Shown here: positions 1,636 to 22,437 of the stretch, in pieces
Layout of the letters: the number at the start of each line of letters is the position of its first letter
Numbering within the stretch: the first letter of the stretch is position 1
From: Candidatus Cloacimonadota bacterium
GTDB taxonomy: Bacteria > Cloacimonadota > Cloacimonadia > Cloacimonadales > Cloacimonadaceae
Assembly (NCBI GenBank): GCA_012516855.1
Contig: JAAYWB010000042.1
Location: forward strand, 1-44,250
Length of the DNA stretch: 44,250 nucleotides
Reading direction: 5' to 3'
The notes under the pieces: generated by a model
Told to the model about the DNA's origin: nothing
Seen by the model: the letters and a program-made list of their open reading frames with translations, nothing else
Database searches by the model: none
Position numbers and translations under genes: made by a program

Positions 1636-2304
1636 ATGATAAATGATCTAAAACTTGATAAGTTGAGCGTGATCGGAAGAGCCGCGGAGGCATATGCTAT
1701 TGGGGATTTATCCGAGGTAAAACAAAGAGCTGAGCGCTTATATCTGGGTAAACGTTTTCCCTTCGTGATCAGCAGAGAATATCCTTATCCCCTGCATTTG
1801 TTCAGTCCGCGCCTTTCTGCGATGCTTGAGGGTGTTGCCAGCTATCCGGATGCTCAGAAAATATGGGAACTAATCACCGCCAGGGAGAACATCATCAAGA
1901 TGATCTCGGTTACTGAGATAAAAAGAACTGCGGCAGAGATCCTGGGCCCCCTGTTTCAGAATAAATACTCTGATAATAAGGATAGAGTAATGCCCCGTAA
2001 ACAGATGATCGGCTATATGATCAAGATTGTAATGGAGTGTTTCGGTTTCACAACATCTCGTGGCAGGATGCAAATCGACACTACCAGAGGACCTGATGAC
2101 TCTGCTCGCAGAGCTAATTACTTTAAATCAGCAACCCGCTACGCAAAAATGACAATAGACGAGCGAGATGTTTTACTTGAACAAATAGGGAATGCGGACG
2201 TGAAGAGGCATTTTCTGGCTATCACTGATCTGATATTAGCCGGACGGACCGAGTATCAGAAAATATACAACATTCATGGCTTAACAAACTGGGATTCATT
2301 ATAG
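1636..2304 (+). CDS. Unknown protein, first gene of island operon
   Basis: I do not recognise this 222-residue protein. It is soluble-looking, mostly helical in character, with no signal peptide or membrane segment. A basic central stretch (about residues 118-160: MPRKQMIGYMIK, then TTSRGRMQIDTTRG and SARRANYFKSATRYAK) could bind nucleic acid, but no named fold is evident. The start ATG at 1636 follows AAGAGGTAATAAG, a good ribosome binding site. It is only 11 bases upstream of the AAA+ ATPase gene and 44 bases downstream of the inverted-repeat promoter, so it is the leading gene of the operon. Leading genes of this kind can be regulators or specificity factors; nothing in the sequence decides this. 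Confidence 0.75.
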   Translation: MINDLKLDKLSVIGRAAEAYAIGDLSEVKQRAERLYLGKRFPFVISREYPYPLHLFSPRLSAMLEGVASYPDAQKIWELITARENIIKMISVTEIKRTAAEILGPLFQNKYSDNKDRVMPRKQMIGYMIKIVMECFGFTTSRGRMQIDTTRGPDDSARRANYFKSATRYAKMTIDERDVLLEQIGNADVKRHFLAITDLILAGRTEYQKIYNIHGLTNWDSL

Positions 2305-2315
2305 GGGGTAGATGA

Positions 2316-4139
2316 ATGAAGATCGAGGGTATAGAACCAGTAGAAATCCTGCACAAGCTGATTGAATTGAAAGCACCGGAGCAAGTCTTTGACCAAGATG
2401 ATCAGATAGATTCAACTCAAGCTCAAGACATGGCTCCCATAGCAAAGCCCAAGGCGAAGCTACTAAACAAACATATACACCAGTTGATAAAGCATCCCCT
2501 GTTTGAGAGCTACAGCCTCACGAAGCAAGATGTGATGGTGATAGCCGATCTTTGGCAGTTTCATCTCGAACTGCCTGGCAGGAGTAGTAGCTGGGCTGGC
2601 ATCTGCGCCAGTGCCAAGATTAGGCGTTATCAAGTGACTGCATGCCTGAAATACGTTACCGGGCTCTTAGAACGCAATATCATCTGCTTTGATGAGAGGA
2701 TTGAGGGGAACTACTATCTTAACCCTATGATCCTGCAATCTGCCGAATACACTCTCAGCAAAGACCTCATCCTGAGGATATTGGGAAGGGATATAAGAGA
2801 AGACCTGGAACTGATCATAAAAGAAAGCTGGCAGGATGATAAGGACTTCATGAGTGACTTGAGACTGGTTTTTAATCTCTGCTACAATAGCTTTGGCGAA
2901 TTGGGCAGCAGGTCTCCTATACTGGAGTATCCGATTCTATCGGCTTGCTTGCATCTGCTCAAAGACAGAATACTGGCTGCTCCTGACACCCTGGGCATAA
3001 AAGAACTCATACGCCAACATAGCCTAAGCGAAGACCAGTTGTACATCGTACTTTTGGTTATGTATCACCAACTATGTTGTGATGACAGAATAACGGAGGC
3101 TGATCTGGCTCTCTCCCTGGCCCCAGATCCCAGATTCAGGTGGCTACAGCAACAACTCCTTAGCGATGATTCCGTCTTGATATCTTCTGGGCTTATCAGC
3201 AGAGAACAACGCTTCCACCGAGCCCAGGTAAACACTATAGGTATTCCGCATGAAACACTTAAAACGCTGGGCTATAGGTCAAAAACCTCTGAAGATGTGG
3301 CGATAAAGCTTAGCCCATACTTTCAAAAGTGTCAGCCCAAGCAGACTCTGGGTGATGTGATAATTCCCGAATCGGATAAGCAGCTGATTTCCCAAATAAT
3401 CACAAAGTGCAAGTCTTATAAACGCAGAGACCTGGAAAAATGGGGATTGATGGTTGAAAGCAGTAAACAAGGTGTAGTGCTTTTGCTCTATGGTGCTCCC
3501 GGAACCGGCAAGACTTATACGGCAGGAGCAATAGCCAAAGAGCTTCGTAAAGACTTGATCACGCTCAATGTGCCAGAACTGCGAAACAAGTATTATGGTG
3601 AAACCGAGAAGTTGATTAAGAAAGCTTTTAGCGAGATGCGGGAGATGGCTTCAAAGGACAGCAATGCGCCTGTGTTCCTACTCAACGAAGCTGATCAACT
3701 GATCCATGAAAGAATAGCCAGCACTTCAACCTGCAGCACAATTGAGAATTCAATCCAGAGCATCATTCTGGAGGAATTGGAGACCTTTCCTGGCATCCTG
3801 ATCCTCACCACAAACCTTGAGTCCAACCTCGATGAGGCCTTCTTTCGCCGCTTTGATCTCAAGTTCAGATTCAGACTACCGGACATTGAAAGCAGGCGAA
3901 AACTGTGGAGTATGTATCTGAGGAAAGAGATTCCAGGATCAGCGGATATCGATGTTGAGCAATTGGCGCAGAAATATCAGTTCAGCGGTGCACAGATCGC
4001 ACTAGTGGTGCAAAACGCCTGTGTTGAAGCGATTGGTCGGACAGGTAAATCCAAGCGTCTCAGCCAGCATGATCTTCTGAAATACGCAGATCTGGAACAG
4101 CCTTGGGCAAATCAAGTGAATAAAAGCATAGGGTTTTAG
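2316..4139 (+). CDS. AAA+ ATPase with N-terminal extension and Asn in Walker B
   Basis: A 607-residue AAA+ ATPase, expected to form rings and remodel a protein or nucleic-acid partner. The C-terminal AAA domain has Walker A GAPGTGKT (393-400), an aromatic pore-like segment KYYGETEK (425-432), Walker B FLLNEAD (454-460), sensor-1 Asn in LTTN (about 500) and arginine-finger candidates R511/R512 in FFRRFD. A lid domain follows (to about 590). Walker B normally reads DEAD; here the first Asp is Asn (N457), which should weaken magnesium binding, though E458 is kept. The N-terminal 340 residues are helical, with a possible winged-helix-like stretch around 65-140, and match nothing I know. The start follows GGGGGTAGATGA; the next gene begins 8 bases downstream with AGGAGG. 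Its place before a nuclease and a protease suggests an unfoldase or switch role, an inference only. Confidence 0.88.
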   Translation: MKIEGIEPVEILHKLIELKAPEQVFDQDDQIDSTQAQDMAPIAKPKAKLLNKHIHQLIKHPLFESYSLTKQDVMVIADLWQFHLELPGRSSSWAGICASAKIRRYQVTACLKYVTGLLERNIICFDERIEGNYYLNPMILQSAEYTLSKDLILRILGRDIREDLELIIKESWQDDKDFMSDLRLVFNLCYNSFGELGSRSPILEYPILSACLHLLKDRILAAPDTLGIKELIRQHSLSEDQLYIVLLVMYHQLCCDDRITEADLALSLAPDPRFRWLQQQLLSDDSVLISSGLISREQRFHRAQVNTIGIPHETLKTLGYRSKTSEDVAIKLSPYFQKCQPKQTLGDVIIPESDKQLISQIITKCKSYKRRDLEKWGLMVESSKQGVVLLLYGAPGTGKTYTAGAIAKELRKDLITLNVPELRNKYYGETEKLIKKAFSEMREMASKDSNAPVFLLNEADQLIHERIASTSTCSTIENSIQSIILEELETFPGILILTTNLESNLDEAFFRRFDLKFRFRLPDIESRRKLWSMYLRKEIPGSADIDVEQLAQKYQFSGAQIALVVQNACVEAIGRTGKSKRLSQHDLLKYADLEQPWANQVNKSIGF

Positions 4140-4147
4140 GAGGTAAA

Positions 4148-5644
4148 ATGAAACCTGAAAGAACGATAAATCGGAAAATGGTGGAAGCTGCCCTGATCAT
4201 GAAACAGATCAATGGCGAGATGATTCAAACCATCCCACATGGCGTGGATCTGAAACATGTGTATTGTGCAAACTTTGCACACAGCGTGATAGACGGCATC
4301 ACTACTGAAATGTTCTGCTGCGATCTCATCCGTGGAGATGGAGGAGAACTGAGCAATTCATCAGGATCTGCCCCAAAATTCAATTCAATCTCATCCTCAG
4401 CATCACTAGCGGTTAGCACATTTGCACCATGGAAAACCCGCCTGAGTGAGCTAATAGTTGATCTCGGAACTAAGCAAATGACGGGTTTTGACAAATTGGA
4501 ATTTGAGCATATTGCCCACACTGCCATCCCCAAAGCTAAGAAGCATCCAAATCTGGATGTTTGGTTAGAATCTGATGATGCAATTCTTGCTATTGAGTGT
4601 AAGTTTTGCGAGTATCTGGGCGAGAGAACCGAGAAAGCAAGTCTTCACCCAGCATACAAGAGACTTGCTGCAACTATGGATCGAAATAATCCTTGGGTGA
4701 AGGCTATTGATCATGTTACAAACGAAAAGGGCGAATGTAAATACAGGTTCTTTGATGCTGTCCAAATCATCCGTCACTACTTCGGTGTGCTGAACTCCGG
4801 GCAGAAAGAGAAGCATCTGCTGTATCTATATTGGCATCCGGAAAACGAAGATTGGATGGATATCCACCCCTTTGATCTGCATATGAAAGAGCTGAAAGAG
4901 TTTTCGGATCTTGTCTCACAAGCGACTGATGTGCATTTTCACTTCTTGAGCTTTAATGAATTATGGGAGCAGTGGTCTAGGATGGAAAGCCCTGAGGTGC
5001 AAAAACACTGTAGGAATCTAAAAACAAAGTACTTAGTTAAACTAAATGAATACTCAATGGAGGATAAAATGGTTCCGAGAAATGAAAAATTCCGATTATT
5101 CACGATGCACGGGGTAGTCCAGCCCCCGATAGGTGATGAAGAGAGAATTAGAAACGGGTTGTATATGGCAGGATCGCTTAACTTAGCTTTAGCTAGAGGA
5201 TTTACCAGAAAAATCAGACTAGCAGCCTACGAAATGCCTTTGGCAACCAATACTAAAAGTGGAAACAGGATCGATTTGTTTGGTTATGATAAGGATCACA
5301 ATCCATACATTATTGAGTTGAAAACCGGTGATGCTAGGGATGAAATACCTGAAGTAATCGCGCAGATCAATCGGTATGAATCAATGCTGATTCCGATCTT
5401 GAATGATGTTGAAAAAGCAATAAAAGAACAGCTATTTCTCGATGAGTTTAAACTTACTCGAGACATTAAGAAAATCGTGCTAGCACCGGCAAATTATTAC
5501 ACAAAGCATGATTGGGAGCCATATAAGAATGAAGAAATACTTCTCTGTTATCTTCGTAAAGACAAGGATGTAGATGCCCTTGCAGACAAAGTCAATGGAG
5601 AGGAAGGCATCACGGTATACGTGTACAACAAACCAGCTAAGTGA
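4148..5644 (+). CDS. Protein with two PD-(D/E)XK nuclease-like motifs
   Basis: This 498-residue protein carries two separate restriction-nuclease-fold signatures. The first is around residues 118-155: E120, then NLDVWLES with D137, a strand, and AIECKF with E150-x-K152, like PGN_0703-type restriction endonuclease proteins. The second is around 360-412: RIDLFGYDKD with D376, then YIIELKTG with E390-x-K392, followed by a helix EVIAQINRYESML, like DUF91/NucS-type nucleases. Both keep the Asp and the E-x-K pair, so both may cut DNA. The middle (200-290) has no recognised domain. The start follows a strong AGGAGG. The next gene starts 8 bases downstream. A natural fusion of two nuclease domains would fit a DNA-degrading effector; the alternative is one active and one DNA-sensing domain. 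Family assignment by eye. Confidence 0.72.
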   Translation: MKPERTINRKMVEAALIMKQINGEMIQTIPHGVDLKHVYCANFAHSVIDGITTEMFCCDLIRGDGGELSNSSGSAPKFNSISSSASLAVSTFAPWKTRLSELIVDLGTKQMTGFDKLEFEHIAHTAIPKAKKHPNLDVWLESDDAILAIECKFCEYLGERTEKASLHPAYKRLAATMDRNNPWVKAIDHVTNEKGECKYRFFDAVQIIRHYFGVLNSGQKEKHLLYLYWHPENEDWMDIHPFDLHMKELKEFSDLVSQATDVHFHFLSFNELWEQWSRMESPEVQKHCRNLKTKYLVKLNEYSMEDKMVPRNEKFRLFTMHGVVQPPIGDEERIRNGLYMAGSLNLALARGFTRKIRLAAYEMPLATNTKSGNRIDLFGYDKDHNPYIIELKTGDARDEIPEVIAQINRYESMLIPILNDVEKAIKEQLFLDEFKLTRDIKKIVLAPANYYTKHDWEPYKNEEILLCYLRKDKDVDALADKVNGEEGITVYVYNKPAK

Positions 5645-5651
5645 GGTTGAT

Positions 5652-6530
5652 ATGATATCCAATAGTGAATTTAATCGAAGGGTAAAGGCGGTCTCCAAAG
5701 CAAGAGATAAACGGATTAGCCTGATTGAATCCAGGCTCAAGGATTTAACCGGGCTAAGGCTAGCCAATAAGCACAAATATCAATACCTATGTAACGAAAA
5801 CTTCGATGAAACACCTATTAAGAGAAGTGGAAAAGAAACCATCGTTGTGTTTCCTACTGATCTAATAGAGAACGATTTGAGAACTGATGATCAATTTCAA
5901 GTATGGACTTTCATTCTAGGCAGAATTGGAACTGGCAATGTATTCGAGAAAGGCATAGAATTCGAAAGCAAGGAACTTAGTGGTAAGGCCCAAGCCCAAT
6001 TAGAGGCTATTCAAAAAGAAGTGCTACGTTTAGATGATGGAGATTTTGGCATCTCTGACATTCTCGGAGTTTTCTCATACACTGAACACATGATTAAGCT
6101 TTACGCTCAGGTGATCGCCTATCACTCTATTCTGCTTTGCGTTGAAGCTGAAGATTTGGCTTTTGTGGTTCTGGCTCATGAACTTGCCCATGCTTACACC
6201 ATGGCCGGGTATGATATAAATGGGTACAGAGGACAAATATTGGATCAACCCGGGCAGAGGTATAAATATGTAGTTGAGGGCTTGGCGCAATATTATACAG
6301 AAGCAGTTTGTCATCAATTGGCGGGAAAGCAAGCCCAATTCAAAGCAGCTTTCGAGGCTCTTCTATCGAATCAAAGAGATCCTTATACATGGCATAAGCA
6401 ATGGTTTGGTGGAAAACAATCTCACGAAAGAATCCGACCTCTATTGCTAAGTTATCGGGATCATTTAGACTCAGAGTATTTCAAAAATCACTTGAATATA
6501 AGTATTGAATTGCTTAGGTCAATTCCCTAG
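5652..6530 (+). CDS. HELAH zinc metalloprotease-like protein
   Basis: A 292-residue protein with a zinc-protease motif: VVLAHELAH places H176, E177 and H180, and VVEGLAQYYTE gives E209 as a third metal ligand 29 residues later, the gluzincin pattern. No signal peptide is present, so it should act inside the cell. An in-frame ATG at 5574 exists, but it lies inside the upstream gene; the ATG at 5652 follows GAGGTTG, leaves a 7-base gap and is preferred. The first 60 residues are basic and helical. It is translationally close to the dual-nuclease gene and the Sel1-repeat gene. In defence contexts such proteases cleave a regulator or activate a toxin; that role is inferred. The exact family is not identified. 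Confidence 0.72.
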   Translation: MISNSEFNRRVKAVSKARDKRISLIESRLKDLTGLRLANKHKYQYLCNENFDETPIKRSGKETIVVFPTDLIENDLRTDDQFQVWTFILGRIGTGNVFEKGIEFESKELSGKAQAQLEAIQKEVLRLDDGDFGISDILGVFSYTEHMIKLYAQVIAYHSILLCVEAEDLAFVVLAHELAHAYTMAGYDINGYRGQILDQPGQRYKYVVEGLAQYYTEAVCHQLAGKQAQFKAAFEALLSNQRDPYTWHKQWFGGKQSHERIRPLLLSYRDHLDSEYFKNHLNISIELLRSIP

Positions 6531-6538
6531 GAAAATCC

Positions 6539-7345
6539 ATGAATAGGATAGATGAGATAATATCGGCAGCCAATTCCGGTAATGCAGACTCCCAAAACCA
6601 GTTAGGAGATGCTTACTACGATGGTATCGGAGTAGAGCAGGATTACATACAAGCATTAGAATGGTATCTCCGAGCAGCTAAACAGGGGCATGGTATAGCT
6701 CAGTATAACGTAGCCTATGCTTATGCCAATGGAATTGGAACTCAGAAGAACACATCTGAAGCTATCAAATGGTTCGGTAAATCAGCAGACCAGGGAGTAG
6801 CTCTGGCTCTATATGTTCTGGCAAAGATGCTAATCGATGGTCAGTTCATAGAACAGGACATAACTAAGGGTCTGGATTTGCTGCAAAAAGCCTCAGATCA
6901 GGGACTAGACCTTGCACATTATGACCTTGGTACCATATTCCTTGAGGGCAGGATTGTTGTGCCCGATGTGAACAAAGGAATAAGCTTTCTGGTCCTCTCG
7001 GCCGAGCAAGGAAACAAAGATGCTCAATACAATCTCGGCTTGGTCTATTTTAGTCTACCTGAGCCTGACTATGCTTCTGCCGAGAAATACCTTCGAGAAG
7101 CATCATTCAACGGCCATTTCAAAGCAATGTTCGAGTTATCGAGACTTTACGCCATTAGCACGAGAGACTACAGGCATGGCCTATTGTGGGCAATCGTAGC
7201 CTTAGAATACTGTGAAAAACAAGATGAACAGAGAATCACTCGGATCAAGAACAACTTGGAAAGTAAGCTAAGCACTGCCGAGTGTGACGCAGTCTCTTTT
7301 GAGGCAAGGAACATAATAGCAACATTGGACGCAAGTCTTAGTTGA
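6539..7345 (+). CDS. Sel1-repeat (TPR-like) protein
   Basis: A 268-residue protein made almost entirely of Sel1-like repeats of about 36 residues. Examples are AQYNVAYAYANGIGTQKN with EAIKWFGKSADQG, and AQYNLGLVYFSLPEPDY. About six repeats run from residue 15 to 215, followed by a short charged helix. Sel1 repeats form a curved helical solenoid that binds other proteins, so an adaptor role is expected. There is no signal peptide, unlike many Sel1 proteins of surface pathways, so it probably works in the cytoplasm with the products of the same operon. It begins 8 bases after the HELAH protease gene, with AGGAAAATCC as a weak ribosome binding site. A substrate-presenting partner of the protease is a testable guess. 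Confidence 0.85.
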   Translation: MNRIDEIISAANSGNADSQNQLGDAYYDGIGVEQDYIQALEWYLRAAKQGHGIAQYNVAYAYANGIGTQKNTSEAIKWFGKSADQGVALALYVLAKMLIDGQFIEQDITKGLDLLQKASDQGLDLAHYDLGTIFLEGRIVVPDVNKGISFLVLSAEQGNKDAQYNLGLVYFSLPEPDYASAEKYLREASFNGHFKAMFELSRLYAISTRDYRHGLLWAIVALEYCEKQDEQRITRIKNNLESKLSTAECDAVSFEARNIIATLDASLS

Positions 7346-7374
7346 TTATGTCGAGAATCGATTCAGGAGGATAG

Positions 7375-8742
7375 ATGAGTTTTGTTCACTTACACACTCA
7401 CAGCGAGTATAGCTGGCTGGATGGAGCCTGTACAATCGATGATCTGGTGCAGAGAGCGGTGCAGTATAAAATGCCGGCTGTGGCGATCACGGATCGCAAT
7501 AGTGTGGCTGGGGCTTCCCGCTTATGGCATCAGTGCATCAAGGCAGGCATCAAGCCGATCATCGGTCTGGAGATAGCAGTTCAAAATGATCTTGGAGACG
7601 GCAGGGTCTTTTCTGTGATCCTGCTAGCCAAGAACGGCTCCGGCTATGAGAATCTCTGCCGTCTGATTACTCAGGCTCATGAACATGATCCGCAAGCTCC
7701 CAAGATCACGAAAAGGCAGTTAAGGGAGCATTCCCAGAATCTGATCTGCCTTTCCTTCAGTGTGGTAGGAGAGATTTGCACCTTGCTTCTGGAAGGAAAA
7801 GACGAACAGGCAAGGCAGGTTTCGGATTGGTATTATGAGGTTTTTGGCGAAGATTACTTTTACGAGATCCAGAACCACGGGCTACCATCTGAAGCGGTGG
7901 CCATGAATAAACTGCTGAATCTGGCTTATCAAACCAAGATACCTGTGGTTCTCACCAATGACTGTCACTATATGGATCGTAGTGACTCCCTCGCCATCGA
8001 TTCCCTGAATTGCATCAGAAAGGGCTTGGATTTCGCTCATCCTGAAGCCAAACGCTTTGCTTGCAATGAGTACTACTTCAAGTCCCCCAAGGAGATGAAA
8101 GCGCTAAAAGGATTTCCACCTGAGCTTACAAAGAACACCCTGGAAATTGCCGATAAAATCGATGTAACAGATGGCTATATACCTATTGCTGAGATCGATT
8201 TATCAGCTCCCAGGGTGGTTGGTTTGCTAAGCAGTTACTCTCCCACATTGAGGATCAAATTCAAGCCCCGTAGCAGGCACATAACGGTCTCTTTGATGGA
8301 TCATAAGTCTGCAGATGTGTTGGAGCATCTTCGCCAGCAACTTCTCGATTATGATCTTGTTCACTTTACTGAGTATGATCCCTGGACGCCAAGAAGTATC
8401 TATTCCGAAGTTCTGAAAACAATGAAAGTGCCGGAAGAGAAGATAAAGGAACTTTGTGGATCGATCCCGGCTGGGGCAAAGACCCTACGTGAAGCCATCT
8501 TGATGAATGTAGATTTCTCGTGCCTTTCCAGCGAGGACTACATGTGTTCGTTAGCAGCAGAGATAGGCGATACCTTGATCAATACCTTCAAAGAAGAAAT
8601 AACATCAAGACACAATTACGCTTTGATCCCGAAGGGCATACCGGTTCCGGTTGTTCAGGATATTGACGGGCAGCCACGATGCCAGTATGATATCAGGCGT
8701 ATGGAAGAGGCAGGATTTGTTACCATTGAAATGCAACCATAA
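7375..8742 (+). CDS. DnaE-like PHP protein lacking the polymerase catalytic site
   Basis: The first 280 of 455 residues match the N-terminal PHP domain of bacterial replicative polymerase DnaE: FVHLHTHSEYSWLDG, AVAITDRNSVAG, IKPIIGLEIAV and VVLTNDCHY are its hallmark segments. PHP domains are metal-dependent phosphoesterases; H7, H9 and E66 are kept, but TDH reads TDR. After residue 295 the protein follows the DnaE segment just downstream of the active site: VLEHL, the VPEEKIKELCGSIPAG-type finger segment, and QYDIRRMEEAGFVTIEM near the end. The catalytic PDxDxDF motif is replaced by a segment around residues 303-312 (ITVSLMDHKS), and the rest of the palm, fingers, beta-binding and OB domains are absent (DnaE has about 1150 residues). 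It cannot be a polymerase. AGGAGG precedes the start. It may be a phosphodiesterase or a replisome decoy; this is inference. Confidence 0.82.
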   Translation: MSFVHLHTHSEYSWLDGACTIDDLVQRAVQYKMPAVAITDRNSVAGASRLWHQCIKAGIKPIIGLEIAVQNDLGDGRVFSVILLAKNGSGYENLCRLITQAHEHDPQAPKITKRQLREHSQNLICLSFSVVGEICTLLLEGKDEQARQVSDWYYEVFGEDYFYEIQNHGLPSEAVAMNKLLNLAYQTKIPVVLTNDCHYMDRSDSLAIDSLNCIRKGLDFAHPEAKRFACNEYYFKSPKEMKALKGFPPELTKNTLEIADKIDVTDGYIPIAEIDLSAPRVVGLLSSYSPTLRIKFKPRSRHITVSLMDHKSADVLEHLRQQLLDYDLVHFTEYDPWTPRSIYSEVLKTMKVPEEKIKELCGSIPAGAKTLREAILMNVDFSCLSSEDYMCSLAAEIGDTLINTFKEEITSRHNYALIPKGIPVPVVQDIDGQPRCQYDIRRMEEAGFVTIEMQP

Positions 8743-8768
8743 CCATAATAGATACCAAGGAGATTGAC

Positions 8769-9596
8769 ATGTCCGAAAATTCTAAGAGGATGAAGGGCAG
8801 CAGGTATAGATGCTTACTTGCTACTGAGTTGGAGTCGGGAAAAGCACGTAAACTTTTGGAGGATATTTGTCGGCCGTTGCAAGTAGAGATTACAGCCGAA
8901 GATGAGTACTTCCCGAAGGGATTCTCATGTCCAAAAGAACTTATTCTTACAAGCCAGGTAGCGAAGCCTTTCTTTGATAAACACTTTCCAGATCTCGGCT
9001 TTGAACATGTAAAAACCATTGTCAAAGATGAGTGGTGGTTGAAACCAAAGCTAGGCGGAAATACCCCTAATTGGGATATAGTTAGTTCTTGTACACTAAA
9101 CAATCAAGCAAAAGCTCTTATCATTGTAGAAGCTAAAGCTCACATAAGCGAGTTGGATAGTGCCGGCAAAACGTTAAAAAAAGGAGCAAATGATAATAGT
9201 ACTGCAAATCATCAAAGCATTGAGAAAGCAATAATCGATGCTAATGATGGTCTTAACGCTGCTTATACCTCCAAAGGCTTTGCTATTAGCATCAACCAAT
9301 GCTATCAGTTGTCTAATCGTTTTGCCTTTGCCTGGAAACTCGCTTCTCTAGGAATACCCGTGATATTGATGTATCTTGGCTTCATCAATGCCAAGGAAAT
9401 GGGAGACTATTTTCAAGATGATGAAGTCTGGATGATCAATCTGCTAGCGCATTCAAGGGGAATCATCCCAGAAGCAGCTTGGAACGGATCTCCAATTATG
9501 GTTGGCAGTACTCCAATTTACCCAATTTACAGAGCTGCTGACATCCAAGCAACACCAACTATCGTTAAGATTTATCCGCCAAAGGATGCGGAATGA
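8769..9596 (+). CDS. PD-(D/E)XK nuclease-like protein
   Basis: A 275-residue protein with a restriction-nuclease-fold signature: PNWDIVSS supplies D103, a hydrophobic strand follows, and LIIVEAKAH supplies E121-x-K123. The EAKAHISEL string is typical of small nuclease-like proteins in defence islands. The C-terminal half (about 170-260) is hydrophobic and aromatic (VILMYLGFINA, VWMINLLAHSRG), probably a core fold rather than membrane. AAGGAG precedes the start, 26 bases after the PHP gene, so it belongs to the same transcript. It may be an endonuclease effector. No target-recognition domain can be seen, so specificity would have to come from partners. Confidence 0.68.
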   Translation: MSENSKRMKGSRYRCLLATELESGKARKLLEDICRPLQVEITAEDEYFPKGFSCPKELILTSQVAKPFFDKHFPDLGFEHVKTIVKDEWWLKPKLGGNTPNWDIVSSCTLNNQAKALIIVEAKAHISELDSAGKTLKKGANDNSTANHQSIEKAIIDANDGLNAAYTSKGFAISINQCYQLSNRFAFAWKLASLGIPVILMYLGFINAKEMGDYFQDDEVWMINLLAHSRGIIPEAAWNGSPIMVGSTPIYPIYRAADIQATPTIVKIYPPKDAE

Positions 9597-9668: not shown

Positions 9669-10391
9669 ATGATACCAATCACATTCTTGTCCCACGCTTG
9701 CGATATTCTCGCAGACACAAATGCAGGTTTGACCGGTTCAAATATTGCAGAATACTGCGCAGCATACGCTGTAGACTACAACGTTGATATACCTTATGGT
9801 ACCTATCCTTTTTTCGATAGTCCAAACAAGCGAACGGCACTCCTAAAAAATCTCCAGGCTTTCAAGCCAGAGCAACAATACGTAATTATCAAAGAGTTGT
9901 GTGAACTAGATAAGTGGTCTGATGATCCGAAGATCAAAGACTTGAAGATCAAACTAATATCAAGATATGGCGGTTTGTTTCAGGGTTCTGAGTGCATCAA
10001 CGAGATACTGATTGAAGAAACCAAGCACTGGCTGGAACCTTATGCAAAGTCAAAGCAAAACTACTTGTATGCCTTGGACAAATTCAATAATGGCGTGTTT
10101 CTTAGGAATTCTCTTGATGACCTAAGGCTGTCTCTTGAATTGCTACTGCAAGAAATCTTTGGAAATTCTAAGTCATTGGAGAACCAAATCAATGAAGTTG
10201 GGTCAATGGTTATCTCGAAGGGAGGATCGAAAGAATTCGCCAATATGTTTCAGAAACTCGTGGAGTACTATACCAAGTATCAAAACACCTATATCAAGCA
10301 TGACGACAGGGTCATGGAGCTTGAGATTGAGTTTATTTTTGAGCTCACATCGTCTTTCATGAAGCATTTTGTTAGGCTATCTGATCGCTAA
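9669..10391 (+). CDS. AbiJ N-terminal-domain-like protein, candidate abortive-infection component
   Basis: A 240-residue protein whose first 80 residues (ACDILADTNAGLTGSNIAEY, then a variable loop, KRTALLKNLQAF and an acidic helix) resemble the small helical AbiJ N-terminal domains. In many abortive-infection proteins these precede a HEPN RNase. The C-terminal 150 residues are helical and end with FMKHFVRLSDR; no clear R-x4-6-H HEPN motif is seen, so the toxin half may be divergent or absent. The gene lies 72 bases after the preceding nuclease gene, with GAGGAG before the start. It closes the first operon. The assignment rests on a short pattern and could be wrong. Confidence 0.55.
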   Translation: MIPITFLSHACDILADTNAGLTGSNIAEYCAAYAVDYNVDIPYGTYPFFDSPNKRTALLKNLQAFKPEQQYVIIKELCELDKWSDDPKIKDLKIKLISRYGGLFQGSECINEILIEETKHWLEPYAKSKQNYLYALDKFNNGVFLRNSLDDLRLSLELLLQEIFGNSKSLENQINEVGSMVISKGGSKEFANMFQKLVEYYTKYQNTYIKHDDRVMELEIEFIFELTSSFMKHFVRLSDR

Positions 10392-10670: not shown

Positions 10671-13600
10671 ATGATGAGATTAGAAGACATTAAGGCAGGA
10701 GCCCTGATTCAGGGCATTGAACCGGGGGAAGTAGTGCGCATTGTTACCAGTGAACCTATTGGTGGAGATGCATACACCGTTTATTATAAGAAAAGCGATA
10801 GTTCTCTTCGAGAGCGCTTGATATATCGTTCTGATGAGGAAAACCTTTCCATTGCAGTGGCTGGTAGGCCCTGGACATTCGATGCTCCTGGCGCTGAGTT
10901 CAAGCTCGCAGTAGAAGCAAACCGGATTAACCTGGCATATCTGTTTGATCCTATGATGGCTGTTCACACATCCAATGTTGAGCCCCTCCCGCATCAGATC
11001 ACAGCAGTTTACGAATCACTGCTTCCCAGGCAACCCCTGCGTTATATACTTGCTGATGATCCGGGAGCAGGGAAAACTATAATGGCAGGACTGTATATGA
11101 GGGAACTCATCATGCGGGCTGATGCCAGGCGAATACTGGTTATTGCTCCGGGTTCCTTGGTAGAACAGTGGCAGGATGAAATGTACGAGAAGTTCGGCCT
11201 TGATTTCTGTATTTTCTCACGTGATTTACAACAGCAATCCAGGGGCGGTAATCCCTTTGAAGACTATGACTATATGATAGCCAGGATCGACATGATCTCC
11301 CGTGACGAGGATCTAGTTGAGAAGATCAAACAAAGCTACTGGGACCTGGTGGTAATAGACGAAGCTCACAAATGCTCAGCCTCCTGGTTCGGCAATGAAC
11401 TCAAGAAAACAAAACGCTACAGGCTGGCTGAAGAAGTGGGCGCTACCACCCAGCACCTCTTGCTGATGACAGCTACTCCCCACAAGGGCAAGGATGAGGA
11501 CTTCCAAACCTTTCTTGCTTTGCTCGATTCTGATCGTTTCTATGGGAAAACCAGAGACAGCGCTCATTCGATTGATATCTCGGATCTCCTGCGCCGTATG
11601 GTGAAGGAAGATCTCCTCAAATTCGATGGCACCCGCCTTTTCCCAGAGAGGAAGGCTTATTCTGTGACCTATAAGCTGTCTGATCCCGAGGCAGAGCTAT
11701 ATCTTGCTGTCACAGAGTATGTGCGGGAAGAAATGAACAAAGCTGATCGTCTGACCGGGAAACAAAAAAACACTGTCGGCTTTGCCCTCACCATCCTGCA
11801 AAGGCGCCTCGCATCCAGCCCTGAGGCTATATACCAATCTCTGAAAAGAAGATTGGACAAGCTCAATCGCAGGCTGGAGGAAGAAAAGCTCATTCAGAGA
11901 GGCGAACTGATCAGACAGCAAAAAGAAAAAAGAATTGAGCTGCCGGATGATTTTGATGATGAGGACTGGGATACTGAAGAACGGGAAGAAAATGAAGAAG
12001 AGCTGGTGGACAGCGCTACCACAGCTCAGACCATCCAGGAACTGGAATCAGAGACCAATACCCTCAAGCGTCTCAATGAACAGGCCAAAGCACTACGTGA
12101 CTCAGGCTTTGACCGTAAATGGGAAGAGCTTTCCAGTCTATTTGAGAATAACCCGCATTTTAGGGATGCCAATGGCAGTTTTCGCAAGTTGATCATTTTT
12201 ACTGAGCATCGTGACACCTTGAATTACCTGTATGAGCGGCTCAGTGGCTTACTTGGCAGCCAGGAGGCGATCATCACCATCCATGGCGGCATTAAAAGAG
12301 AGGAAAGGCGTAAAGCCCAGGAGCAATTTAAAAACCATCCCCGAGTCAGGATACTCCTCGCCACCGATGCTGCCGGTGAAGGCGTAAACCTTCAGAATGC
12401 CAACCTGATGGTTAATTATGACTTGCCCTGGAATCCCAACCGGATCGAGCAACGCTTTGGACGTATTCACCGCATCGGCCAGACTGAGGTTTGCCATCTC
12501 TGGAATATGGTGGCGGATGAGACCCGGGAAGGTGACGTGTTTCAAACCCTCTTCACCAAGCTGGAAGCCCAAAGAGCCGCCTTGGGCGGCAGAGTTTTTG
12601 ATATTCTGGGAGACGTATTTGAAGAAACAAGCCTCAAAGACCTGCTGATCGAAGCGATCCGCTATGGGGATGACCCTGAGGTCAGGTCCAGGCTGTTTCA
12701 AGTGGTGGAAGGCGTTCTCGATACCGAGCACATCAGAGAGATCATCAGCCGCAATGCCCTGTGTGAAGAGGTTATCGATGAAAACCGTCTCTTTGCCGTG
12801 AAAGCCGAAATGGAGAAAGCTGAAGCACGAAAACTCCAGCCCTATTTCATTAAATCCTTTTTCTTGCAGGCTTTCAGCCAGTTAAAAGGCAACATTCGCC
12901 AGGTCCGTAGCGAGGGCGAGCGTTGGGAAATCTCCTATGTTCCGGCCCAGATTCGTGAACGGGACCGCCAGATTTCAGGCCGTAACCGCAGAAACATCAA
13001 TCCGGTCACTCAGAAATACGAACGCATCTGTTTCGATAAACCCTTTGTGAGATTGCCCAACCGGGAAGCACCCATGGCCAGTTTCATCCATCCTGGGCAC
13101 CCGCTGATGATGTCGATCACAGATATCATGCTGGAGGATCACCGCAACAAGCTGAGACAGGGAGCAATTCTTGTAGCCCCTCATGATGATAGCATAGATC
13201 CCAAAGCCATGCTGATCATAGAACACTCAGTAAAAGAAGGGGTCAACCGGGATAGGTGCATCTCACGTCGTTTGCAGTTTGTCCAAATCGATGAACAGGG
13301 AGCGATCAGCAACGCGGGGTGGGCACCCCATCTAGATCTGGAGCCCATTTCAGATAGTGACTTCATTCTGATAAAACATCTGCTGGCAGCCCAGTGGGTT
13401 TCATCCGAACTGGAAAGCCAGGCTCTGGCGTATGCCACCACCTACCTTGCCCCGGAGCATTTTTCGGAAGTGATGCATCGGAGGGAAAGACAGGTCACCA
13501 AGACCCTTGAAGCTGTTCATCAGAGGCTGGTGACCCAGATCAACTATTGGTCCGACCGCAAGATCAAGCTTCAGGATGACCAGGCTGCGGGTAAAAAGAC

Positions 13601-14192
13601 CCGGATCAACATCGATAATGTCAGCCGCATCATCGATGAGCTGGATAACCGCCTCAAATCCCGCACCAAAGAGCTCAACGAGATGCGCCATGTAGTCTCG
13701 GAGACTCCGGTCGTGATCGGAGGCGCGCTGATCATCCCTGCTGGTTTACTGGCACAATTGAACGGGGAGGACACCTGGACCGCAGATGCCGAAGCCAGGA
13801 AGCAGATCGAGCTAAAAGCCATGCAGGTTGTGATGGACCACGAAAAGTCAAATGGTTGTGAAGTTTTTGATGTCTCTGACCTCAATTGCGGCTGGGACGT
13901 CACCAGCATCCCAGCTCCCATAGATGGTAAAATGCCGGAAACCAGGCACATTGAGGTAAAAGGCCGGGTAAAAGGCCAAAGCACCATCACCGTTACCAGA
14001 AATGAGATCCTGTATGGGCTAAACCAGGCTGACAAATTCATCTTAGCACTGGTGATTGTTGATGGAGATAGTTATGAGGGGCCATACTACATTCGTAAAC
14101 CCTTCACTCAAGAACCTGACTGGGCTGTAACCAGCATCAATCTCGATATCGCCAGTTTACTCAAGAAAGCATCAAAAAAGGAGGGATTATGA
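10671..14192 (+). CDS. SNF2/DEAD-type helicase with C-terminal DUF3883-like domain
   Basis: A 1173-residue superfamily-2 ATPase, the translocase of a helicase-methylase-ATPase anti-phage operon. Motif I is DDPGAGKT (129-136), motif II DEAH (230-233), motif [12 protein letters not shown]. The second RecA domain has [12 protein letters not shown] and [13 protein letters not shown] (motifs V and VI). An acidic coiled insert near residues 420-450 ([18 protein letters not shown]) lies between the two RecA halves. The C-terminus (about 1050-1165) resembles DUF3883, a nuclease-fold-related domain: GWDVTS, then RHIEVKGRV with E1095-x-K1097. DUF3883 is common in defence helicases. ATG codons at 10671 and 10674 both follow AAGGAATCAGG. 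The stop overlaps the RhuM start as ATGA, so translation is coupled. Confidence 0.9.
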
Positions 14193-15217
14193 AGAAGGAA
14201 CTTAAAACAGCGGAACCAAGATTCCTGATCTACACCAATCAGGATGGAAGCGTACACATTGAAACCAAGCTATTGGATGAAACCATCTGGCTGAGTCAAA
14301 AGCAACTGGCAGAGTTGTATCAGACCACTGTTGCTAACATCAATATCCATATTCGCAACATCCTCACAGAGGGTGAGCTAGAGCCAGACGCAGTTATTAA
14401 GGATTTTTTAATAACTGCCTCCGATGGTAAAAGCTACCATACCATGCACTACAATCTCGATATGGTTATCAGTGTGGGATATAGGATCAAATCCCAGATC
14501 GCCACACGATTCCGCATCTGGGCTACTGAGCGGCTCAAGGAATACCTGATCAAGGGTTTCACCATGAATGATGAACTGCTCAAAGAGGCCGGAGGCGGTT
14601 CCTATTTTGATGAACTTCTGGCCCGGATCAGGGATATCCGCTCCTCAGAAAAAGTCTTCTGGCGCAAGGTCCTGGATATCTATGCTACCAGCATAGACTA
14701 TGATCCCAGGTCAGATCTATCGCGTGAGTTTTTCAAGGTCATCCAAAACAAGATGCACTGGGCGAGTCATGGCCATACTGCCGCCGAGATCATCTATCAG
14801 CGGGCTGATGCCGGCAAAGCCAATATGGGGCTCACCAACTGGCCGGGAACCCAGCTCCGTAAGGCAGATACTGAAATAGCAAAGAACTACCTGAACCAAG
14901 AAGAACTGGATCTCCTGAACAGAATTGTGAGCATGTATCTGGACTTCGCCGAGCTTCAAGCCCTGAACAGAACTCCGATGTACATGAAAGATTGGATATC
15001 CAAGCTGGATGAGTTCCTGAAGCTAAGCGGCAGGGATATTCTCGTGCATGCCGGCTCCATCGCCCACGAAGACGCGATCCAGAAAGCCCGGCTGGAATAT
15101 GAAAAATGGCATCATGAGCAGCTTTCAGAGCCGACCGCAGCAGAAAAGCACTTTGTGGAAGCCCTGCAGGAAGTAAAACAGATTACTAAACAGTTCAAGC
15201 CCAAGAGAAAGAAATGA
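14189..15217 (+). CDS. RhuM-family protein
   Basis: A 342-residue RhuM-type protein, named after a Salmonella pathogenicity-island gene and often found inside restriction and defence operons; its biochemical role is not settled. The recognisable N-terminal part has [23 protein letters not shown] and [15 protein letters not shown] (residues about 30-105). The conserved middle has [19 protein letters not shown] and [15 protein letters not shown] lysine-rich tail (FKPKRKK) ends it. It overlaps the helicase stop and the methyltransferase start by 4 bases each, so it is fully embedded in the operon. AGGAGG precedes its start. It could be an accessory DNA-binding or toxin-like component of the system. 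Confidence 0.88.
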
Positions 15218-18072
15218 GTGAATATAAAATAAAAGCCCCCAGAAAGCTTATCGAAGTGGCCCTGCCCCTCAAAGAGATCAATGAAGCCTGTGTTCGTGAA
15301 AAATCCATACGCCATGGTCATCCCTCCACCTTGCATCTATACTGGGCAAGGCGTCCTCTGGCTGCCGCCAGGGCGGTGCTCTTTGCTCAATTGGTCAATG
15401 ACCCCGGCTGGGATGAAGAACTGCAGATAGGCTACAAGCGCAAAGCGGATGCCAACCGCAAGCGGGAAGAGCTGTTTGAGATCATCCGGGAACTGGTGAA
15501 GTGGGAGAATACCAACAACGAGATAGTGCTGGAGAAAGCCCGGGCTGAGATCCGTAAAAGCTGGAAAGTAACCTGCGAACTGAACAAAGACCATCCCCAG
15601 GCTGCAGAGCTCTTCAATCCCGATAAGTTGCCAGCCTTCCACGATCCCTTTACCGGAGGCGGCTCCATCCCGCTGGAAGCCCAACGCCTGGGATTGGAGG
15701 CATGGGCTAGTGACCTGAACCCTGTGGCAGTGCTTATCAACAAGGCCATGATCGAGATTCCACCCAAGTTTGTGGGACACCGTCCCATCGGTCCCATTCC
15801 CAAACGTGACGATCAGACAACAACCAATAACTACACTTGGCCAGGCTTGACCGGCCTGGCTGAAGACGTGCGTCGTTGGGGACATTGGGTGCGGGAAGAA
15901 GCCTACAAGCGCATCGGGCACCTCTATCCCCCCATCAAAATCACACCCGAGATGGTTTCCGAACGCCCTGATCTGGCCCCTTACAGGGGAAAGAAGCTTA
16001 CTGTGATCGCGTATATATGGGCAAGGACAGTGAAAAGCCCCAATCCCTTATACTCCCATGTGGATGTGCCGCTTACATCCACTTTTCTGTTATCTGACAA
16101 GAAGGGGAAAGAGGCCTGGATCGAACCAATAATTGATGAAGATAAATACCAGTTCAAAGTCCGTGTTGGCATGCCGAGTGATCTTGAGACAGTTAAGAAA
16201 GGCACCAAGGCAGCAGGTAGATCATCAAACTTCATTTGCATTCTCTCGAATACTCCAATTGATGGGAATTACATCAAGGCTGAAGGACAAGCAGGGAGAA
16301 TGGGGTCTAAACTGATGGCGATCGTATGTGAAGGGAATAACTCCCGTGTTTATCTATCCCCTGATGCGTATCAGGAGAAACTTGCCAATTCTGCGGTTCC
16401 CACCTGGAGACCTGAACAAGAATTAGTTGGGAAAAGTGCTGATCAACTTCCCCTTTATGGCATGAAGACGTATGGAGACATTTTCTCCAACAGACAACTT
16501 AGTGCTCTGAACTGCTTTTATAATATTATCTCTGAAATTGGCAATAACGGTTTTAATGTCAACGAAAGCCAGAAATATAGAGCGACTATCGCATTATACC
16601 TTTGTTTTGGAGTAGACAAATGCACAGACTATTGGTCAACCGCCTGCAGTTGGCACATCAGTAAATCTCTTATTAGAAATACATTTGGAAGACAAGCCAT
16701 TGCTATGGTATGGGATTATGTAGAGGCTAATCCTTTTTCTAGTTCTTCTGGGAATTGGTTATCGATGATAAGTTGGGTTTGGAAAGCGATGAATTCTTTT
16801 GCTATAACGATCAAAGGACACGGAGAAGTCGCTGACGCTAGCACACAAAACATATCACAAGACAAGATCGTTTCAACTGATCCCCCCTACTATGATAACA
16901 TAATGTACGCAGATCTATCAGATTTCTTCTACGTTTGGCAGAGACCTGTGTTAAAACATATCTATCCTAATCTGTTCAAAACAATAAATACTCCAAAAGA
17001 CAAAGAGCTTGTTGCGTCTCCATATAGGCATGCATCTAAAGTTGAAGCGGAAAATTACTTCTTGTATGGGATGATTGAAGCTATGAGAAATATATTTGTT
17101 CAGTCTCATAGAGGCTATCCAGCAACGATTTACTATGCATTCAAACAATCAGATACAACAAACTCAGGAAGTTCATCTACAGGATGGGTTACGTTCTTGG
17201 AAGCTGTTATTAATTCTGATCTTGCTATTGTGGGAACTTGGCCAATTAGAACTGAGCTTGTTAATAAAGTAAGTGGGATCGGCAGTAATATGCTTGCGTC
17301 GTCGATTATTTTGGTCTGTAGAAAGAGAAAGGTTGATTCAGAATCAATAAACCGAAAGGACTTCTTGAAAGAGCTTAATCAAAATGTCCCAGAAGCCCTG
17401 GATACAATGATCAATGGAAGTGAAACATCAAGCCCAATTGCTCCAGTTGACCTCGCTCAAGCGGCCATAGGACCGGGCATGGCAGTATTTTCCAAGTATA
17501 AGTCCATTCTAGAGGCTGATGGTTCTACAATGACTGTCCGCACTGCCCTCATTCTTATCAATAAAGCCATTGACGACTATTTCAAGGAATTGGAGGGTGA
17601 TTGGGACAGTGATACCTGTTTCTGTCTGCAATGGTTCAGCGAGTATGGCTGGCGTGAAGGTGTATATGGTGAAGCAGATGTTCTGGCCAGAGCCAAAGGT
17701 GTTTCAGTTGAAGGCGTCAGAGATAGCGGTGTCTTGGCAGCCGCAGGTGGAAAGGTTAAGTTGCTGAGGCCAATAGAATATCCCGATACCTGGAATCCCG
17801 CCAAAGACAGCCGCATGCCAGTCTGGGAGGTTTTACATCATCTCATCCGTCTGCATCAAACCAGGGGAGAATCCGCAGCCGCAGAGATCGTTAAAGCTAT
17901 CCCCCATATTTGCGAAACAGCCCGCCAACTGGCTTTCCTGCTCTATACCACTTGCGAACGCAAAGGCTGGGCTGAAGATGCGCGTCCTTACAACGATCTG
18001 GTTACAGCCTGGCTCTCCATCGAAAAGCAAGCACGTGCAGATGAGGGTGGTCAAATTGAGGCTGAGTTCTAG
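15214..18072 (+). CDS. DUF1156-type DNA (adenine) methyltransferase
   Basis: A 952-residue DNA methyltransferase that should mark host DNA for its operon. The start is the DUF1156 signature: RKLIEVALPLKEINEA, EKSIRHGHPSTLHLYWARRP (about 7-48). The S-adenosylmethionine-binding motif is DPFTGGGSIPLEA (144-156). The catalytic motif is DPPY (556-559) in STDPPYYDNIMYADL. D/NPPY motifs act on exocyclic amino groups, most often N6-adenine. The 400 residues between the two motifs are far longer than in compact methylases and probably hold target recognition. That middle, roughly bases 16070-17450, is visibly AT-richer than the ends, which suggests recombination of a specificity segment. The gene overlaps the RhuM stop by 4 bases. 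The DUF499 gene starts 190 bases downstream. Confidence 0.9.
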   Translation: MSEYKIKAPRKLIEVALPLKEINEACVREKSIRHGHPSTLHLYWARRPLAAARAVLFAQLVNDPGWDEELQIGYKRKADANRKREELFEIIRELVKWENTNNEIVLEKARAEIRKSWKVTCELNKDHPQAAELFNPDKLPAFHDPFTGGGSIPLEAQRLGLEAWASDLNPVAVLINKAMIEIPPKFVGHRPIGPIPKRDDQTTTNNYTWPGLTGLAEDVRRWGHWVREEAYKRIGHLYPPIKITPEMVSERPDLAPYRGKKLTVIAYIWARTVKSPNPLYSHVDVPLTSTFLLSDKKGKEAWIEPIIDEDKYQFKVRVGMPSDLETVKKGTKAAGRSSNFICILSNTPIDGNYIKAEGQAGRMGSKLMAIVCEGNNSRVYLSPDAYQEKLANSAVPTWRPEQELVGKSADQLPLYGMKTYGDIFSNRQLSALNCFYNIISEIGNNGFNVNESQKYRATIALYLCFGVDKCTDYWSTACSWHISKSLIRNTFGRQAIAMVWDYVEANPFSSSSGNWLSMISWVWKAMNSFAITIKGHGEVADASTQNISQDKIVSTDPPYYDNIMYADLSDFFYVWQRPVLKHIYPNLFKTINTPKDKELVASPYRHASKVEAENYFLYGMIEAMRNIFVQSHRGYPATIYYAFKQSDTTNSGSSSTGWVTFLEAVINSDLAIVGTWPIRTELVNKVSGIGSNMLASSIILVCRKRKVDSESINRKDFLKELNQNVPEALDTMINGSETSSPIAPVDLAQAAIGPGMAVFSKYKSILEADGSTMTVRTALILINKAIDDYFKELEGDWDSDTCFCLQWFSEYGWREGVYGEADVLARAKGVSVEGVRDSGVLAAAGGKVKLLRPIEYPDTWNPAKDSRMPVWEVLHHLIRLHQTRGESAAAEIVKAIPHICETARQLAFLLYTTCERKGWAEDARPYNDLVTAWLSIEKQARADEGGQIEAEF

Positions 18073-18087
18073 GACTGAGGAGTTATC

Positions 18088-18216
18088 ATGCTGAGAATAG
18101 TAAATCTGCTTTCCAGGGAAGAGGGCACAACTAAGCTGCCTGGATTGAACTCGGAACAAATCAACTTCCGAGAGCTTCCGAGTTGTTTGCCAAGCATGGT
18201 AAACTCATTGATATGA
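18088..18216 (+). CDS. Possible 42-residue ORF between methylase and DUF499 genes
   Basis: An ATG at 18088, after GAGGAG, opens 42 codons (MLRIVNLLSREEGTTKLPG..., ending in MVNSLI). Its stop overlaps the start of a 17-codon ORF, which in turn overlaps the DUF499 start. It has no recognised family. It may be a small operon member, a remnant of a larger gene or a leader. An inverted repeat lies inside it (AACTCGGAA 18148-18156, TTCCGAGTT 18176-18184). Confidence 0.35.
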   Translation: MLRIVNLLSREEGTTKLPGLNSEQINFRELPSCLPSMVNSLI

Positions 18217-18266
18217 ATAATCTTGCGAATATGGGAACGCTGCAAAAGCATCAGGAGATATTATGA
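18213..18266 (+). CDS. Possible 17-residue coupling ORF directly before DUF499 ATPase
   Basis: ATG at 18213 (inside ATATGA, overlapping the stop of the 42-codon ORF) opens 17 codons ([17 protein letters not shown]). Its TGA overlaps the DUF499 ATG. No ribosome binding site of its own is obvious. Such a chain of overlaps could carry ribosomes across the 190-base gap. Confidence 0.25.
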
Positions 18267-21097: not shown

Positions 21098-21355
21098 AAC
21101 ATGCTACGCGCGTAGTAAATAAAACAGGAGGTGAGAATTATGCAAAACATAATAGCAACTCTCCTACAATGGATAGCTGTATAGTGGCTAAGGTCTTAGG
21201 TGAAATACTACCTTGACCGAGAATGGCCACTCTTATGGTTAGCCATGTAGTTGGTCTTCGTAATGTTGTATAGCATATGCAGTTAACATGCGTGGAGTAC
21301 CTGGGCGTGAAACACCGCCCAGGTACAAAACGTGAAGAAAGGTGGAATGGAGATT
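21098..21355 (+). promoter_or_regulatory. Structured leader region before HEPN-UvrD pair
   Basis: The 258-base gap is not empty. In order it holds a 12-bp palindrome (21104-21115), a 14-codon ORF with a consensus ribosome binding site, a stem from AGTGGC (21183-21188) to GCCACT (21226-21231) with an inner AAGGT/ACCTT pair (21190-21194 and 21210-21214), and a perfect 11-bp hairpin (GTACCTGGGCG 21297-21307, CGCCCAGGTAC 21316-21326, 8-base loop). No U-tract follows either stem, so they are not simple terminators. The set resembles an attenuation or translation-controlled leader, or a small structured RNA. No known RNA family was recognised. Confidence 0.45.
21140..21184 (+). CDS. Possible 14-residue leader peptide
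   Basis: ATG at 21140 is preceded by AGGAGGTGAG, the best ribosome binding site in the neighbourhood, and opens MQNIIATLLQWIAV before a TAG. The peptide is hydrophobic. Its stop codon lies at the foot of the first stem of the leader, the arrangement seen in peptide-controlled leaders. A tiny membrane-active toxin is a less likely reading because of the length. Confidence 0.4.
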   Translation: MQNIIATLLQWIAV

Positions 21356-22429: not shown

Positions 22430-22437
22430 CAAATCCA

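Follow-up and report, generated by a model that had tools for sequence, protein, structure and literature searches.

The window analysed here, a stretch of 44,250 nucleotides from a Cloacimonadota genome (G000; contig JAAYWB010000042.1), carries close to its start a run of genes on one strand, separated by short gaps (1636-9596). The run encodes, in order, protein A, protein B, a protein with two nuclease-type motifs, a metalloprotease, a Sel1-repeat protein, a relative of DnaE that is called pseudo-DnaE throughout, and a nuclease. The pseudo-DnaE gene is preceded by an AGGAGG ribosome-binding site. A promoter and terminator scan gave results near chance level.

1636..2304, + strand: protein A, 222 aa, conserved partner upstream of B
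2316..4139, + strand: protein B, 607 aa, AAA+ ATPase of the classic clade, with a C-terminal AAA module closest to IetA
4148..5644, + strand: protein with two PD-(D/E)XK-type motifs (weak Pfam/NucS matches)
5574..6530, + strand: putative zinc metalloprotease found in 4 cassettes, recognised by reading its HELAH motif in the sequence, with no family match above threshold
6539..7345, + strand: Sel1-repeat protein, found in the same 4 cassettes as the metalloprotease
7375..8742, + strand: pseudo-DnaE, 455 aa, ATG start, a PolIII alpha derivative that appears catalytically dead
8769..9596, + strand: PD-(D/E)XK-like nuclease, 275 aa, with invariant W102-D103...E121-A-K123

Homologues of the 275-residue nuclease occur at three other loci that contain an A-B pair or pseudo-DnaE, and PDB profile searches with this nuclease and with protein A gave no match. 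The middle of protein A is 25-30% like small hypothetical proteins of about 110-120 aa, which are found on plasmids of Photobacterium, Lelliottia and Acinetobacter (L161, L162, L163).

Beyond the nuclease lie a PADLOC candidate, PDC-S32 (9669-10391), and then a complete Hma system (10671-21097). A RhuM-family gene (14189-15217) sits between HmaA and HmaB and overlaps each neighbour by 4 bases, as if it were part of the Hma operon; at the corresponding position in G015 it is missing. At 21332-24162 a GajB-like UvrD helicase (574 aa) is preceded by a 365-aa protein with no PADLOC or Pfam match, and the two may form a Gabija-like pair in which the partner has diverged. One boundary of the island is a mutator-type transposase (2-1237; IS256-like by eye) that is cut by the contig start, and the other is a DDE transposase (24352-25404), after which come the housekeeping genes for an amino-acid kinase, MetG, SpoIID and Hsp33. 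The PDC-S32 candidate is 100% identical over 240 aa to its counterpart in G045, a genome of another genus (L017:9588-10310), and the genes around it are 80-99% identical between the two genomes; judged from the PDC-S32 identity against that of its neighbours, part of the island has apparently been transferred recently between these lineages.

The N-terminal part of pseudo-DnaE is a PHP domain, the only domain returned by a Pfam search of the 455-aa protein, and in a phmmer search of the PDB residues 2-264 align with the PHP of Taq DnaE (E=5e-46). It is 45-48% identical to the PHP of DnaE from the same family of Cloacimonadota. Residues 306-451 align weakly (11 bits) with Taq DnaE 467-617. An HMM of residues 284-455, built from the short-form homologues, matches Cloacimonadota DnaE at residues 400-552, with E=3e-12 for G048 and 2e-5 for the DnaE of the same genome, against E=0.6 for the best reversed decoy. 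As PDFDIDF occupies 394-400 of the DnaE from the same genome and KMDILG, the motif of the third Asp, lies at 548, the remnant corresponds to the DnaE segment between these two catalytic motifs, which agrees with the first-pass annotation of this DNA, where the C-terminal part was said to track DnaE right after PDxDxDF. About 120 DnaE residues have been swapped for a linker of about 35, and by gapless extension of the alignment RHITVSL would be the equivalent of PDFDIDF. The layout of the gene is as follows.

7375..8172, + strand: PHP domain, residues 1-266 (Pfam PHP, E=3.9e-45)
7495..7497, + strand: Arg41 codon, in place of the metal-ligand His of TDH
7612..7614, + strand: Ser80 codon, in place of a metal-ligand His
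7759..7761, + strand: Ser129 codon, in place of a metal-ligand Cys
8173..8289, + strand: linker of about 35 residues instead of the DnaE N-terminal palm including GPGRGS and PDxDxDF (alignment)
8290..8739, + strand: residues 306-455, remnant of palm and thumb; its end falls on the strand of the third catalytic Asp, which is Glu452 in this protein

An AF2 model of pseudo-DnaE, with seven family members as input, reached a pLDDT of 73.6 and a pTM of 0.74, with residues 1-18, which include the HxH and Asp ligands, below a pLDDT of 50. In Foldseek the model resembles whole PolIII alpha (TMq 0.74-0.82) better than the PHP-only chimera 4gx9 (0.52), so the C-terminal part of the predicted fold matches as well. 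With the HMM and the fold match in agreement, the C-terminal homology of pseudo-DnaE to DnaE is real. The retained piece had at first been read as a finger segment, a reading that has to be corrected. The thumb helices lie at Taq 513-552 (PMC3919608), which makes the middle of residues 306-455 thumb rather than fingers, and the piece as a whole is palm and thumb. Fingers are kept only in sister proteins of 682-685 aa, and the AF2 model of the 682-aa form (pLDDT 54) was too poor for use.

The expectation that this is a DnaE relative with the PHP kept and the polymerase active site lost is borne out in the alignment, where both GPGRGS and PDxDxDF have been removed by deletion. At the position of the third catalytic Asp the window protein has Glu, as do the remaining complete short forms, and the long forms have Asn or Tyr; PMC3919608 describes the catalytic residues D401, D403 and D555 (E. 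coli numbering) as absolutely conserved in the C family. Measured against a C-family polymerase, pseudo-DnaE has the DnaE-type N-terminal PHP and lacks the complete palm with GPGRG(S/A) and fingers. It has no conserved clamp-binding motif, and the OB fold and C-terminal domain are absent. The suggested binding to the clamp thus finds neither a motif nor the C-terminal half of DnaE to build on.

The PHP metal site, which the earlier reading had not remarked upon, is altered as well. The nine metal ligands are HHDHEHCDH in true DnaE and HHDRESSDH in the window protein, and every homologue has the same set or a more degraded one. Three ligands are replaced throughout the family (H41R/T, H80S/P and C129S/G) and six of the nine positions (H5, H7, D16, E66, D196 and H198) are kept in nearly all members; the G020 protein, which sits on a long branch, has lost H7 and D196 too. 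The active motif is given as HHDHEH[C/H]DH in PMC12926913, where any deviation in DnaE is scored as inactive. A Geobacillus PolC with a single PHP ligand changed has no exonuclease, and in other DnaE and PolC proteins one or a few ligand changes accompany the loss of activity (PMC5636811). Judged by its motifs, pseudo-DnaE is doubly dead: neither the polymerase centre nor the PHP exonuclease motif has survived.

A phylum-wide search of 125 Cloacimonadota genomes combined a PHP search with the lengths of the open frames. The C-terminal part was matched in 12 of the 125 at E<=1e-3, one of these matches (G048) being true DnaE. There are 12 pseudo-DnaE genes in 11 genomes (G000, G045, G004, G009, G013, G014, G057, G020, G015, G039 and G005, the last with two), 11 of them complete and the G013 gene cut by a contig edge. 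G011 has only broken copies, one interrupted by a stop and foreign in sequence at its 3' end, the other a start fragment beside protein A. The family comes in a short form of 454-457 aa, a long form of 682-685 aa with fingers, and a single form of 359 aa; ten of the 11 intact genes have a length within the first two ranges and the eleventh is the 359-aa form. All 71 genomes with a completeness of 90% or more and a contamination of 5% or less match the PHP, with full-length DnaE listed for nearly all of them, and pseudo-DnaE coexists with normal DnaE; for G009 pseudo-DnaE is the only entry listed.

In the PHP tree pseudo-DnaE forms a single clade (UFBoot 100) that lies within the DnaE of Cloacimonadota, and the first branches of this clade are the long forms and the form of 359 aa. 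The dN/dS values (NG86) are 0.11-0.29 for the whole gene and 0.07-0.21 for the PHP part, with somewhat higher values for the C-terminal part, and on this measure the family, including the G014 copy, is under purifying selection. The window and G045, which belong to different genera, share 88% identity in pseudo-DnaE against 67% in DnaE, whereas G000 and G020, of the same genus, share 56% in pseudo-DnaE against 76% in DnaE, which together with the patchy distribution suggests horizontal transfer. The genes are best described as a single family, maintained under selection, of PolIII alpha (DnaE) paralogues that have been inactivated in Cloacimonadota. A pattern-based scan of genome-collection contigs with a family-specific query found six pseudo-DnaE loci, all in Cloacimonadota; the other 74 matches are nearly all long DnaE-type polymerases with PDxDxD, and a few (L087, L090, L110 and L126) were left without a type. 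Searches of viral contigs for pseudo-DnaE and of plasmids with its C-terminal part found none.

An assembly chimera or a simple truncation was rejected, as the identical junction recurs in many independent genomes, and the dN/dS values led to rejection of a pseudogene. The early impression of neither a plain truncation nor a standalone PHP has therefore held, with a remnant (residues 306-455) after a linker and intact homologues of the same length under selection. The homologues are likewise not merely isolated decaying genes, the broken copies being confined to G011.

Protein A is found at ten loci in the phylum at E<1e-29, plus a fragment in G039. Eight A loci have enough flank to be compared (G000:C42, G045, G005:C21, G005:C19, G015:C97, G011, G039, viewed from the B side, and G060), and three whose contigs end too soon were left out (G000:C41, G033 and G015:C121). 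Pseudo-DnaE or its start fragment is present at seven of these eight. At G011 the start fragment follows A directly, without B, and G060 has the A-B pair without pseudo-DnaE. In the three long forms and the 359-aa form pseudo-DnaE is the next gene after B, and the earliest-branching genes of the family thus lie directly downstream of the AAA+ ATPase and protein A. A nuclease-type gene, of varying family (DUF6946, REase-ARP or ExK), stands in the same gene run at nine of 11 informative loci, so that most members are in runs with PD-(D/E)XK-type nucleases. G004 and G009 have nuclease-type neighbours and no A-B pair, and in G014 and G020 pseudo-DnaE is alone among housekeeping genes, from which it follows that pseudo-DnaE does not strictly depend on the ATPase. 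The distant relatives of B in the phylum are found in other contexts, partly transposon-like. A second A-B pair in the window genome, at a contig end (L159, G000:C41, 339-2842), is 75-77% identical to the first.

Known or candidate defence genes are neighbours at four of the 12 pseudo-DnaE loci, namely Hma (G000 and G015), DrmD (G005:C19) and a methylase with a helicase (G045), and none were seen beside pseudo-DnaE at G004, G009, G014, G020 or G005:C21. Of the idea that same-length homologues would be found in defence islands, the existence of intact homologues was confirmed and the adjacency to defence only in part, and for this reason the arrangement is named a conflict-type cassette rather than a proven system of defence. 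The PHP of pseudo-DnaE also matches 777 phage records. These matches are to the PHP of phage DnaE, which in five of six inspected cases is full-length (1111-1241 aa) with PDxDxD, and with phage-encoded DnaE this common a phage replication protein would be a plausible candidate ligand for pseudo-DnaE. The sixth, L214 (Bacillus phage vB_BpsS-140, 3847-7449), is a DnaE region with no annotated gene, in which the PHP lies on a 366-aa open frame that stops before the polymerase part and is followed by unannotated DNA; it is perhaps an intron, an intein or a split gene.

A non-catalytic recognition or scaffold subunit best accommodates the features of pseudo-DnaE, which keeps the PHP-palm-thumb shape although both chemistries are lost, is under selection and has its ancestral place behind an AAA+ ATPase with interchangeable nucleases. 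We give an even chance to the proposal that pseudo-DnaE serves in an AAA+/nuclease conflict cassette as a non-catalytic subunit, be it structural, a scaffold or a sensor. The PHP-thumb shape would have been kept to recognise a normal contact of PolIII alpha, be it a DNA structure at the replication fork, a partner within the replisome or a replication protein encoded by a phage. ATPase B and the nucleases would be the acting parts. Against this stand the solitary copies in G014 and G020, the lack of A-B in G004 and G009 and of pseudo-DnaE in G060, the broken copies in G011, the long branch and further ligand losses of the G020 protein, and the defence neighbours at only four of 12 loci; experimental or literature support for defence by pseudo-DnaE was not found. 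The more specific idea of an immune sensor derived from a replicative polymerase is a speculative extension of the subunit proposal. Here the PHP-palm-thumb surface would act as bait or fork sensor, and binding of a phage replication factor or an abnormal fork would switch on the AAA+ ATPase and interchangeable PD-(D/E)XK nucleases.

Pseudo-DnaE could instead mimic part of PolIII alpha and poison or slow the host or phage replisome by occupying a partner surface. The kept PHP and predicted palm/thumb fold would suit such a competitor, as would the frequency with which phages encode their own full-length DnaE, but most of the known contacts are gone with the clamp motif, OB domain, C-terminal domain and fingers. 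Moreover, the PHP proofreading motif is intact in the Cloacimonadota DnaEs examined, so that there is no obvious separate epsilon subunit for pseudo-DnaE to capture, and we regard this competition as unlikely. A decoy of the replisome, which the first-pass annotation had suggested, may also be correct, although no direct evidence for it was found. It is similarly doubtful that pseudo-DnaE is a cellular regulatory or repair factor that is carried with mobile defence genes and acts outside defence. The orphan intact copies in G014 and G020, the former also under purifying selection, are what such a factor would leave, yet it accounts poorly for the patchy presence, the pattern of transfer and the ancestral association with the A-B pair and nuclease genes. 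Activity of the PHP domain as a phosphoesterase, the suggestion of the first-pass annotation, or as a nuclease could draw on the six retained ligand positions but is very improbable given the three ligands replaced in every member, the further losses in G020, the scoring of any deviation as inactive in PMC12926913 and the Geobacillus PolC precedent (PMC5636811). Least credible of all is that the gene is a functionless duplicate or fragment of dnaE in decay; the broken G011 copy might speak for this reading, which is at odds with 11 intact genes of single origin, kept lengths and dN/dS well below 1.

Amongst known proteins, pseudo-DnaE is closest to DnaE1 (PolIII alpha, C family), with which it shares the PHP, the palm/thumb after PDxDxDF (E=3e-12) and the predicted fold (TMq 0.74-0.82), and from which it differs in the absence of GPGRGS, the three catalytic Asp, fingers, clamp motif, OB and C-terminal domains and the full set of PHP ligands. 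The AAA module of B scores best with IetA among the PADLOC models (96 bits), but B falls under the NCBIfam IetA cut-off (90 vs 510 bits), inspection of the ORFs found no IetS subtilase in the A-B cassettes, and neither A nor pseudo-DnaE is a part of the anti-phage system IetAS. Hma (helicase-methylase-ATPase) adjoins the cassette downstream in the window and in G015, but is a separate complete system, and pseudo-DnaE is also found without it. ImuB, an inactive Y-family polymerase that works with DnaE2, is likewise a dead polymerase serving as a non-catalytic subunit of a multi-protein module, although it belongs to another polymerase family, takes part in SOS mutagenesis and does not lie beside AAA+ or nuclease genes. 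The PolX-like or inactivated PolX proteins in PMC12926913, a 2026 survey, are also polymerase paralogues with the polymerase centre lost and the PHP kept, but they are of the X family and their PHP exonuclease is active, unlike the PHP of pseudo-DnaE, which appears inactive. That survey discusses PHP domains that are inactive, as well as inactive proteins of the X and Y families. The parts consulted of the bacterial polymerase surveys PMC3919608 and PMC12926913 yielded no inactive C-family polymerase, and the open-access literature none in defence; an earlier description elsewhere is possible. A PolIII alpha that is doubly dead, under selection and moving horizontally would give the C family a counterpart to ImuB and the PolX-like proteins and, if it is a subunit of a defence cassette, would make it testable whether a core subunit of the replisome can become an immune sensor or bait.
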